From Parvibaculaceae bacterium (GTDB lineage: Bacteria; Pseudomonadota; Alphaproteobacteria; Parvibaculales; Parvibaculaceae), in contig JARGNZ010000004.1 in the NCBI GenBank assembly GCA_029209985.1, positions 95,376-159,375 of the forward strand: DNA of 64,000 nucleotides. Direction: 5' to 3'. Under the pieces are notes generated by a model that saw only the letters and a list, made by a program, of their open reading frames with translations, made no database searches and was not told the origin of the DNA. Below, piece after piece: positions 16,367 to 18,898 of this stretch; position 1 is the stretch's first letter, and every line of letters starts with the position of its first letter. The translations under genes were made by a program, and so were the position numbers.

Positions 16367-16657
16367 ATGACTAAATCTACAACAGCCCTCGCGCTTGCCG
16401 GTGCTTTGACCGCAGCTGTTTCATTGGCAGCCGTTGCCTCTACTGCTCAAGCCGCGGTGCCAGACAATATGGAAAAATGCTTCGGCGTGTCTAAAGCAGG
16501 TGCCAATGATTGTGCGGCAGGTGCGGGCACAACATGCGCAGGCACATCAACAGTTGATTACCAAGGCAATGCTTGGTCATTGGTTGCCAAAGGGACCTGC
16601 ACGTCGATTGACACCCCGTTGGGTAAAGGTTCTTTGACTGAAATCGAACGCCCTTAA
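16367..16657 (+). CDS. bufA: Bufferin precursor peptide (DUF2282/BufA1-type), copper-binding RiPP
   Basis: A 96-residue secreted peptide. Residues 1-29 form a Sec signal peptide ending AQA, with predicted cleavage before AVPDN. The mature part has four cysteines at 38, 49, 57 and 78, in the spacing typical of DUF2282 bufferins (EKCFGV, NDCA, TTCAG, KGTC). In this family an MNIO enzyme (BufB, DUF692) converts core cysteines to thiooxazole-type heterocycles and the exported product chelates copper in the periplasm. GAGGAGA lies upstream of the ATG. bufB, bufC and a doxX gene follow in the same direction with short gaps or overlaps. The modified Cys pair is not provable from sequence; the two central ones are the expected sites. 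Confidence 0.93.
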   Translation: MTKSTTALALAGALTAAVSLAAVASTAQAAVPDNMEKCFGVSKAGANDCAAGAGTTCAGTSTVDYQGNAWSLVAKGTCTSIDTPLGKGSLTEIERP

Positions 16658-16679
16658 GGGCTTGAGAAGGAGCGGATTG

Positions 16680-17609
16680 ATGTTTCCCCGACCTCACCAA
16701 TCCTTCCGTGCTCTTGATCCGATCCCGGCGCGTGCCGGGATCGGACTCAAAGGTGAGCACATGGATGATGTGCTTGAGACGCGCCCTGACCTTGGGTGGT
16801 TTGAAGTTCATCCCGAAAACTATATGAACTCTGGTGGTATATTGCATGACCGCCTTGAAAAAATTCGTGCGCTCTATCCACTTTCCTTACACGGTGTTGG
16901 TTTGTCGCTTGGCACTTATGGGCCGCTGGACCGAACGCATTTGTTGCGCCTAAAGGAGCTGGAAGAGCGATATCAACCCGGCCTCGTCTCGGAGCATCTT
17001 GCGTGGTGCCGATATGAAGATAAGCATTTCAATGACCTGCTGCCGCTGCCTTTGACGCAAGAGGCCTTGGACGTGATGATTGCGCATGTTGACGAGATGC
17101 AAGATGTGCTTGGACGCCAAGTTCTGATTGAAAATCCATCTAGCTATATTTCATTTGATCATGTGGAAATGAACGAGCCTGAGTTTCTTGCCGCACTTGC
17201 TTATCAAACTGGATGTGGACTGCTGCTTGATATTAACAATGTTTATGTGTCAGCGCAGAACCATGGGTTTGATGCTGTCGACTACTTACGCAACTTTCCA
17301 GCAGCTTCAGTCCAAGAAATTCATTTGGCCGGACATGCGCTTGAAGTGCGGGACGGTCATAAAATTCGCATTGATGACCATGGTAGTGAAGTAAGCCAAG
17401 AGGTGTGGCAGCTCTATCGATTCTATTTACAACAAGTTGGCCCTGTTCCTACTTTGATTGAGTGGGATACGAATGTCCCTGCGTTGAGCGTTTTGTTGGA
17501 GCAGGCAGCCCTTGCTGATGTTGAGTTAAATGGTGGCCCGCTTATGGGCGCACCGCATGGGGCGGGTCATGGTGTGTTTCCGTCTCTCTTCGGAGGGCGC
17601 CATGGATAA
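16680..17609 (+). CDS. bufB: MNIO family (DUF692) multinuclear iron oxidase, bufferin-modifying enzyme
   Basis: 309 residues, a TIM-barrel non-haem iron oxygenase that modifies cysteines of the BufA peptide. Conserved polar motifs of the metal site are visible: GLKGEH (His27), FEVHPENYM, LHGVGLSLG (His71), EHLAW (Glu105/His106), IENPSSYI (Glu151), LLLDINNVYVSAQNHG (Asp184, His195), IHLAGH (His215, His219), DDHG (Asp232/His234) and the late Glu261. GAGAAGGAG precedes the ATG at 16680, which is preferred to the TTG at 16662. It starts 22 bases after bufA and overlaps bufC by 8 bases, indicating one transcript. Confidence 0.95.
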   Translation: MFPRPHQSFRALDPIPARAGIGLKGEHMDDVLETRPDLGWFEVHPENYMNSGGILHDRLEKIRALYPLSLHGVGLSLGTYGPLDRTHLLRLKELEERYQPGLVSEHLAWCRYEDKHFNDLLPLPLTQEALDVMIAHVDEMQDVLGRQVLIENPSSYISFDHVEMNEPEFLAALAYQTGCGLLLDINNVYVSAQNHGFDAVDYLRNFPAASVQEIHLAGHALEVRDGHKIRIDDHGSEVSQEVWQLYRFYLQQVGPVPTLIEWDTNVPALSVLLEQAALADVELNGGPLMGAPHGAGHGVFPSLFGGRHG

Positions 17610-18402
17610 CGGGCTTGAGCTGAAAGATTTTCAAGCAGGTTTTTCGCGTGTTTTGGGAGGGGCACCCACGACTGCTTTGCCCATGCCCCTTCGAGATTTT
17701 GGTATGCCGGCTGAACGGCGCTTAGATGTGTACCGGAACAATGTTCACCTTAGTTTACGAGAGGCGCTGGCGGCCAATTTTCCGATTGTGCAGCAGTTGG
17801 TTGGCGAGGCATTTTTTAGTGCAGTGGCGCAGGTGTTTTTAAAAACACACTTGCCGGATCAAGCAGGCTTGATTGGATTTGGCAAAGCTTTCCCTGATTT
17901 TTTAGAAGGCTTTGAGCCGGCACAGTCGTTGCCCTATTTGCCGGATGTGGCGCGGTTTGAATGGGCATGGATCTGTACGGCTAAGTCAGCAAATGCAGTG
18001 ACACTTAAGCCGGAGCGGCTCGGTCGTGTGACGCCGGACCGTATTGCTGACCTGCAATTTATCCTGCATCCCTCTTGCCGTTTTGTCTCGTCTCAGTTTC
18101 CTGTTGTCAGTCTTTGGAACCGTTCGGTTGCGGGGGAAGATTTAGCGGGCTTGTCTTTTGAAAATAATGGGGAAAACGTTGTGCTGTTTCGTCCTCACTT
18201 TGATGTTTTGCAGCGCTCTCTTGGGCTGGGTGGCTTGGCTTTTCTGAAAGCGCTGGGCGAAGGGTTGGCTCTTGGTGGGGCGGCAGAGCGAGCTGCGACG
18301 TATGATGATTTTGATATTGAACATTCGGTGGAAACTGAGTTGGCAGCAGCGCTTGGTGCTGGTTTGTTTTTAGATGTGAAGCTGCCTGGGGCAGTGATCT
18401 GA
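17602..18402 (+). CDS. bufC: DUF2063 bufferin-recognition protein
   Basis: About 266 residues with the DUF2063 N-terminal signature (ELKDFQAGFSRVLGG, and RLDVYRNNVHLSLREALAANFP near residues 33-55) and a C-terminal domain resembling a RiPP recognition element partner. In MNIO clusters this protein binds the DUF692 enzyme and presents the precursor peptide. The ATG at 17602, with CGGAGG six bases upstream, overlaps the bufB stop codon; a longer reading frame from 17530 would overlap bufB by 80 bases and is not favoured. Cytoplasmic. Confidence 0.92.
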   Translation: MDNGLELKDFQAGFSRVLGGAPTTALPMPLRDFGMPAERRLDVYRNNVHLSLREALAANFPIVQQLVGEAFFSAVAQVFLKTHLPDQAGLIGFGKAFPDFLEGFEPAQSLPYLPDVARFEWAWICTAKSANAVTLKPERLGRVTPDRIADLQFILHPSCRFVSSQFPVVSLWNRSVAGEDLAGLSFENNGENVVLFRPHFDVLQRSLGLGGLAFLKALGEGLALGGAAERAATYDDFDIEHSVETELAAALGAGLFLDVKLPGAVI

Positions 18403-18409
18403 GGAGGTT

Positions 18410-18898
18410 ATGATGAACGGAAACAGTCAATCTAGTTCTTTGTGGGGGTCTGTTCAGGGCTTGGTGGTATGGGCCATTGGGATGAGCGAAAAGACACCGG
18501 CTTGGATTTACCAATTGGCCATGCGCGTTGCTATTGGCATGGTGTTTTGGCAGTCAGCCCGTACAAAGGTTGAAGGTGTTTTGACGTTGAAACAGTCCAC
18601 CTTTTTTCTTTTTCAATACGAGTATGATTTGCCGCTGATCCCAGCTGATATTGCCGCTTATATGGCGACTTATGCGGAAACGATTTTTGCCATCTTATTG
18701 ATCGTTGGCTTGGCGACACGGTTTGCGGCTGTGTCCCTATTTGTGATGACATTGGTCATTCAAATTTTTGTTTACCCGCAAGCGTGGGTTGTTCATCTGA
18801 GTTGGATGGCTATTTTGGCTTATTTGATGGCCCGTGGTGCGGGACTATTCTCGGTGGATCATTGGCTTAAAAAGGCCTTTATTTCTCAAAAGATGTGA
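18410..18898 (+). CDS. DoxX family membrane protein of the bufferin operon
   Basis: 162 residues with four hydrophobic segments; the DoxX-like signature includes LAMRVAIGMVFWQSARTKVE and ATYAETIFAILLIVGLATRF. GAGGAGG lies directly before the two adjacent ATGs (18410, 18413). DoxX-type proteins commonly close bufferin and related MNIO operons and are suspected of quinone-linked redox or helping peptide maturation, but their role is not established. It starts 7 bases after bufC, so it is the fourth gene of the operon. Confidence 0.9.
   Translation: MMNGNSQSSSLWGSVQGLVVWAIGMSEKTPAWIYQLAMRVAIGMVFWQSARTKVEGVLTLKQSTFFLFQYEYDLPLIPADIAAYMATYAETIFAILLIVGLATRFAAVSLFVMTLVIQIFVYPQAWVVHLSWMAILAYLMARGAGLFSVDHWLKKAFISQKM

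Follow-up and report, generated by a model that had tools for sequence, protein, structure and literature searches.

What switches on the bufferin operon of a Parvibaculaceae bacterium is the question raised by a 64,000-nucleotide stretch of its genome (GenBank assembly GCA_029209985.1, contig JARGNZ010000004.1, positions 95,376 to 159,375 of the forward strand), hereafter the window, in whose coordinates positions are given unless another locus is named. The segment 16367-18898 is a complete four-gene Buf1 bufferin operon, bufABCD (Table 1), and adds one more example to a type already known. In Caulobacter, bufferin-type operons are controlled by sigma-F together with the negative regulator CC3252 (PMC3511200). 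The answer favoured here, with a probability of about 0.7, is that the operon encodes a predicted copper-buffering peptide and that a CenR-type regulator, acting through an inverted repeat upstream of bufA (box A), is its likely activator, not sigma-F/NrsF. The novelty likely lies in this control route, which would be common to bufA and msrP in this genome, and whose repeat recurs upstream of bufA in several families of the Alphaproteobacteria.

The BufA precursor matches PF10048 in a profile search (84.9 bits; cut-off 22.4), carries cysteines at positions 38, 49, 57 and 78 in the four-cysteine pattern of DUF2282, and has a hydrophobic N-terminus ending in AxA, read by eye as a Sec-type signal. 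BufB matches PF05114 with 346 bits and the NCBIfam model NF050167 MNIO_BufB with 379.9 bits (cut-off 310); its nearest solved structure is 3BWW, it also aligns with a TglH-type chain (8HCI/8HI7) and with MbnB, and its H, E, D and DH motifs, whose residues we take to be metal-binding, align with solved MNIO chains. BufC, of 266 residues, matches PF09836 (75.1 bits) and BufD the DoxX model PF07681 (58.6 bits); no relative of BufC was found in the PDB by sequence, and the NCBIfam scan of BufC and BufD matched only the HvfC and HvfX models, both under their cut-offs. The DUF2063 partner in Buf1 clusters measures about 250-260 residues (PMC12452194). In other words, a four-cysteine DUF2282 precursor, a BufB-type MNIO, a DUF2063 partner and a DoxX gene, i.e. 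the components that define Buf1, are all present. Regarding gene limits, bufB and bufC share the 8 bases ATGGATAA (17602-17609), and the mechanically called TTG start of bufB at 16662 was rejected in favour of the ATG at 16680, an AAGGAG ending 7 bases upstream of it. The first-pass annotation of this DNA had proposed a complete bufferin operon of four linked genes, with a 96-residue exported peptide bearing four cysteines, a DUF692 MNIO enzyme with metal-site motifs and an 8-base overlap between bufB and bufC; gene content, order and coordinates bear this out, and the models for DUF692, DUF2282 and DUF2063 by which it could be checked (PF05114, PF10048 and PF09836) all match. PF05114 and PF10048 each match once in the window's genome, and DUF2282 was found in 19 of 40 Parvibaculaceae genomes.

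Box A (TCACAAATCAGTGA, of the form TCAC-N6-GTGA) sits 237 bases upstream of the bufA start codon, within the 388 bases examined before the gene; the upstream elements begin about 250 bases before 16367, where the span of the first-pass annotation starts, and lie outside it. The repeat occurs once in the window, and shuffling all of the window's bases produced at least one copy in 48 of 100 rounds; since it occurs so readily by chance, its weight rests on conservation. The family set comprises 21 matches, with L010, which has only 76 bases of contig ahead of the gene, omitted and L019 represented by L025, which covers the same stretch; an order-level search covered 29 genomes, all Parvibaculaceae. 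Of 20 family bufA upstreams, 16 carry TCAC-N6-GTGA without a mismatch, the background being 16 of 501 for other open reading frames (ORFs), a count that includes the bufA windows. When all pairs of 4-base words with spacers of 0-14 were counted over twenty 300-base family upstreams, TCAC-N6-GTGA came first, the next palindrome reached 6/20, and the conserved pairs ranking next derive from the GTGATTTCC element. These loci are related by descent, so that p-values are too small. Besides, the right end of the degenerate box B (GCACTGCTTCGTGA) is a CGTGA; measured start to start, it follows box A at a distance of 39-42 bases in 15 of the 20 upstreams.

Downstream of the repeat, which has one mismatch in two cases, every one of the 18 family loci scanned shows a predicted -35-like promoter element, [TG]TGATTT. 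The gap between repeat and element is 16 bases in genus g5, 28 in g3, 29 in g1 and 37-38 in g4 (one locus there also with 8), and the steps between genera amount to about one helical turn, which is what a bound activator that must face RNA polymerase would require. A phasing test gave R 0.83 and p 0.0004, which are only indicative, as related groups were counted as independent and loci were preselected for having both elements. In both CenR papers, activating sites lie directly upstream of the -35 element, whereas here the gap between repeat and promoter varies by helical turns (PMC9275681, PMC9561847). Beyond the family, the element follows the repeat in 5 of 15 repeat loci, namely four f116 loci and L050, where the gap is 6.

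In the window's own genome, which holds 29 exact repeats, the element lies within 70 bases of only two, those of bufA (gap 29) and msrP (gap 27). The msrP repeat, 120 bases upstream of the start codon, has the highest score of the 29 (14.8) on the CenR matrix described below, and MsrP, which we take to be the same protein as YedY, is named by NF003767 (416 bits against 207). The Caulobacter sigma-F regulon includes two bufferin operons and CC2748, named YedY (PMC3511200). This suggests that bufferin and msrP, sigma-F targets in Caulobacter, appear here under a different switch. The own-genome repeats near genes for a resistance-nodulation-division (RND) permease, a calcium/sodium antiporter, DUF547 and DsbD-type proteins, near rpoH and near others have no promoter element and were not retained as targets. 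The rpoH repeat itself lies about 190 bases upstream of that gene (L139:1501-1514, on G000:C12 of the window's genome).

Regarding the Alphaproteobacteria at large, 142 of 387 genomes matched, and 80 bufA regions, our own pick from the listed non-family matches, formed a class sample of which 79 were used, L308 having no start assigned. TCAC-N6-GTGA stands in 11 of these 79 bufA upstreams, spread over eight families with four loci from a single one (f116), as against 13 of 1168 other ORFs in the same regions (1.1%); this is an excess with a binomial p of 1.5e-9 from which kinship has not been removed. Shuffled class upstreams gave a mean of 0.36 repeats with a maximum of 2 in 200 rounds, and the reversed control gave 0. 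In a blind word count, GTAAC-N17-CGAA came first (19/79), and some GC-rich pairs outranked the repeat, e.g. GGCG-N7-CGCC with 13/79, which is to be expected of GC-rich DNA. The form GTAAC-N16-18-CG[AT][AC], derived from this count after the motif GTAAC-N15-18-CGTC had been used first, is taken as a sigma-F-type promoter; it is found at 28 of the 79 genes, with a sigma-F/NrsF homologue nearby in 18 of the 28 versus 1 of the 51 others. Repeat and sigma-F-type promoter occur together in one class locus, L305. Neither this promoter nor a sigma-F/NrsF neighbour is found at 50 of the 79 bufA genes, and ten of these have the repeat. A second sample of named loci (50 of 58 used; L025 belongs to the family, L042, L058, L068, L077 and L082 have no bufA match, and L078 and L079 were omitted) contains 28 alphaproteobacterial loci, 4 of them with the repeat, and 22 others, 0 with it; the grouping is by record names, several starts are approximate and some loci begin near the gene. 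The two samples overlap, L267/L040, L340/L030 and L298/L063 being probably identical records; L267/L040 enters each sample once and the set of 15 non-family repeat loci twice. CenKR homologues are reported in the Caulobacteridae sub-class and in none of the Sphingomonadales or Rickettsiales (PMC9275681).

The link from box A to CenR comes from two species in which CenR sites have been described. In Sinorhizobium meliloti, the srlA promoter is CenK-CenR-dependent and carries AGTCAC-N6-GTGACT, changes in the arms of which lower activity; purified CenR shifts srlA DNA, and the intact repeat competes for binding whereas the mutated repeat does not (PMC9561847). In Rhodobacter sphaeroides, the 31 CenR sites follow TGA-N8-TGA (PMC9275681), a pattern sharing one 14-base frame with T[CG]AC-N6-GTGA. 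The likeness to the CenK-CenR regulon of both species is thus that TCAC-N6-GTGA is bound by CenR in the one and overlaps the motif of the other; box A has the exact repeat core of S. meliloti. On a matrix built from the 31 R. sphaeroides sites, whose own median score is 10.3, box A ranks 6th on the minus and 11th on the plus strand among 127,972 window positions, and box B scores weakly (4.4-5.3). A CenR candidate is encoded in the window's genome at G000:C18:11049-11732, the only place that the CenR query hits at E <= 1e-80; it bears D11-13, D51 and D56 in the numbering described for R. sphaeroides CenR (PMC9275681), and has the repeat upstream as TCACATGAATGTGA, the identical 14-mer standing before the gene in both g5 genomes. 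Both cenR and rpoH have the repeat upstream in the window's genome, and cenR and rpoH1 are R. sphaeroides CenR targets; the R. sphaeroides target table contains no bufferin in the available portion of the paper (PMC9275681), and the R. sphaeroides tolQ site is not found here. CenR-type control is preferred because the repeat and [TG]TGATTT are conserved, the gaps step by helical turns and the box fits published CenR sites, and because a cenR-like gene with its own repeat is present here and a relative, G017, has a CenR paralogue and a kinase beside its operon (see below).

Several observations weigh against this view. Among the R. sphaeroides sites, exact TCAC-N6-GTGA accounts for 1 of 31 and T[CG]AC-N6-GTGA for 3 of 31, and the motif is read as a direct repeat in PMC9275681; the S. 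meliloti binding data and the 1/31 figure pull in opposite ways. As a control, the upstream of tolQ, a CenR target in R. sphaeroides, reaches a best matrix score of 6.9 here and of 5.7-9.2 in 25 family upstreams (of 30 loci). The name CenR is provisional, being based on residue numbering and the upstream repeat rather than on comparison with a named CenR, and the exact repeat stands upstream of cenR in 4 of the 30 family loci available among 37 family matches. Within the family, 2 of the 20 bufA upstreams have the repeat with one mismatch and 2 have none, these last belonging to the two most divergent bufA genes (44% and 48% identity). The repeat shows no genome-wide excess, with 29 copies as against 25 of its reversed form; mechanically chosen ORFs contain 23 of the copies, the bufA and cenR ones in ORFs of 71 and 79 residues. 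The promoter element is missing in 10 of the 15 non-family repeat loci scanned, and a -10 element was not identified at bufA. The chance that at least one further own-genome repeat would have the element nearby is, by our estimate, about a third, and the msrP case therefore rests on what msrP is. A relaxed form of the sigma-F promoter fits 1 of the 20 family bufA upstreams, and the word copper is absent from the available portions of PMC9275681, PMC9561847 and PMC10746171.

The CenR candidate matched 99 NCBIfam models, the best 25 of which include no CenR and are all below cut-off. In the open-licence literature on bufferin, DUF692, MNIO or DUF2282, none of the matches listed concerned CenR; for CenR or CenK with copper, MsrP or YedY, the matches listed included PMC10470753, in the available portion of which copper is a microscopy grid only, and PMC3090404, where CenK is named and copper appears separately for E. 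coli CusS.

Among the alternatives, the one that survives best, although it is given clearly the smaller share of belief, is that another OmpR-family regulator binds the box, e.g. a dedicated copper-responsive CenR paralogue as in G017. OmpR-family regulators can have common site shapes. In G017 (L120:5227-7614), bufABCD is followed on the opposite strand by genes for a CenR paralogue and a HisKA/HATPase kinase; the paralogue is 68% identical to the CenR candidate over 227 residues, and the 22-kb contig holds five exact repeats against about 0.2 expected from the own-genome density (29 in 3.09 Mb), two of them near thioredoxin-like and DsbD-like genes. However, the window's genome yields a single match to the CenR query at E <= 1e-80, and TTHT-ETHIYRLRQKIERDPS, presumably the recognition-helix region, is nearly the same in the CenR candidate and the G017 paralogue, which makes CenR the simplest candidate in the window's genome. 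The G017 pair is, in its own right, a candidate dedicated copper or redox two-component system. Its kinase matched 16 places in the window's genome at E <= 1e-20; every match begins at residue 252 or beyond, and no shared sensor domain was seen. In another relative, G018, a kinase 60% identical to that of G017 adjoins a bufA-bufD pair, and no such regulator was found there. NrsF and an ECF-type (extracytoplasmic function) gene lie on the G017 bufferin contig and NrsF on the G018 bufA-bufD contig; both systems can therefore coexist.

It is improbable that the operon has no dedicated regulator or answers to an ordinary copper sensor (CueR, CsoR or CusR type), the repeat then serving something else. 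In many bacteria, copper genes are under sensors of this kind (for which no genome search was made here), yet no copper-sensor box stands out by eye in 15979-16366, for which no program was run, and no conserved word pair of the family upstreams is stronger than the repeat.

Control by sigma-F was rejected for this bufA. The best PF06532 (NrsF) match in the window's genome reaches 16.5 bits, none passing the cut-off of 26.8, GTAAC is absent from 15979-16366, and sigma-F and NrsF queries from G017 gave no match in the window (tblastn, E <= 1); NrsF is present in 4 of 40 Parvibaculaceae genomes. That a sigma-F-type ECF factor encoded elsewhere runs the operon, the repeat being incidental, is thus very improbable, despite sigma-F control of Buf1-type operons in Caulobacter (PMC3511200) and the de novo recovery of its promoter type in the class sample, as the genome has no NrsF above cut-off (ECF sigma factors as such not having been searched for), no GTAAC precedes bufA and the repeat is conserved across genera and is not incidental. 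The first-pass annotation had seen no ECF sigma or anti-sigma gene next to the operon, in keeping with the lack of sigma-F and NrsF matches in the window, and its guess that control may differ from Caulobacter agrees with the lack of an NrsF above cut-off, with the absence of GTAAC and with the conserved CenR-type box.

Returning to CenR-type control of a copper-buffering operon, the proposed sequence of events would start with phosphorylated CenR binding box A, perhaps also box B, and recruiting RNA polymerase. In the Buf1 family, the two central cysteines are modified to thiooxazoles, the outer two are disulphide-bonded and the product buffers periplasmic copper (PMC12452194). From this published work, BufBC would turn Cys49 and Cys57 of BufA into 5-thiooxazoles, Cys38 and Cys78 would pair as a disulphide, and the peptide would be exported by Sec and then bind copper; BufA is accordingly, by analogy with its family, a predicted exported peptide that would act as a copper buffer in the periplasm. 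If the same CenR switch also served msrP, copper buffering and periplasmic methionine repair would rise together. The closest known system is the Caulobacter Buf1 operon CC3254-CC3257, which agrees in its four gene types, in their order and in having a four-cysteine, signal-bearing precursor (PMC12452194, PMC3511200); it differs in having ECF sigma-F and the negative regulator beside it (sigF-CC3252), whereas the window's genome has no NrsF above cut-off and a CenR-type box upstream. The captophorins, 5-thiooxazole metallophores made with an MNIO and PME1, share the MNIO, the DUF2063 partner and the DUF2282 precursor group, but fontiphorin, oxazolin and gonophorin have EGKCG repeats where BufA has the DUF2282 four-cysteine pattern (PMC13097082).

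In a broader reading, which we hold at slightly better than even odds, alphaproteobacterial bufferins would have two alternative switches, sigma-F/NrsF and a CenR-type two-component system acting through TCAC-N6-GTGA in helical phase with a [TG]TGATTT promoter, the latter switch having taken over the sigma-F targets bufferin and msrP and thereby made copper buffering and the repair of periplasmic methionine part of the envelope-stress response. A CenR-type switch, if true, would explain part of the bufA genes without sigma-F, i.e. the ten of 50 that have the repeat. CenKR, the input signal of which is given as unknown (PMC9275681), would gain a copper or redox output, and the input could be tested with a bufA reporter. 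The Caulobacter parallel suggests that bufferin and MsrP may form one functional module, kept together while the regulator was swapped, an idea in agreement with work in E. coli on the repair of oxidised periplasmic proteins during copper stress, involving MsrP and CusF (PMC9302797).

Table 1. Genes of the bufferin operon and predicted upstream elements, in window coordinates.
Feature	Position	Strand	Description	Basis
bufA	16367-16657	+	Buf1 (DUF2282) bufferin precursor, 96 residues	PF10048; Cys 38/49/57/78; Sec-like signal peptide by eye
bufB	16680-17609	+	MNIO bufferin maturase	PF05114; NF050167 above cut-off; aligns with solved MNIO chains
bufC	17602-18402	+	DUF2063 (PME-type 1) partner protein, 266 residues	PF09836
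bufD	18410-18898	+	DoxX-family membrane protein	PF07681
Box A	16116-16129		Inverted repeat (TCAC-N6-GTGA), predicted CenR-type	Conservation; matrix rank
Box B	16149-16162		Degenerate second box, putative function	Overlaps promoter element; conserved CGTGA
GTGATTT	16159-16165	+	Predicted -35-like promoter element ([TG]TGATTT)	Downstream of repeat in family loci

Some further observations concern the boxes and the surroundings of bufferin genes. Over 40 family genomes, TCAC-N6-GTGA-N25-28-CGTGA was also matched upstream of an apparent rpmH in three g4 genomes (L097-L099), the gene being recognised by eye from the beginning of its product, and the L107 region (G008) resembles these rpmH upstreams; the other matches, inside genes, look like chance and were set aside. 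In G018 and G028 (L122, L119), bufA is followed by bufD with no bufB or bufC match between, and a second bufA with bufBC lies on another contig, so that two precursors possibly share one maturase. Near the window's operon are an Hpt gene (20100-20519) and a hybrid histidine kinase gene (20650-22842); Hpt is near the operon in 8 of 19 family regions, six of the eight with a hybrid-kinase match and seven with an Hsp20 match. Directly after bufD, a glutathione S-transferase-like gene (18981-19985) is kept in the same-genus locus L025 and has no match in 19 other family regions.

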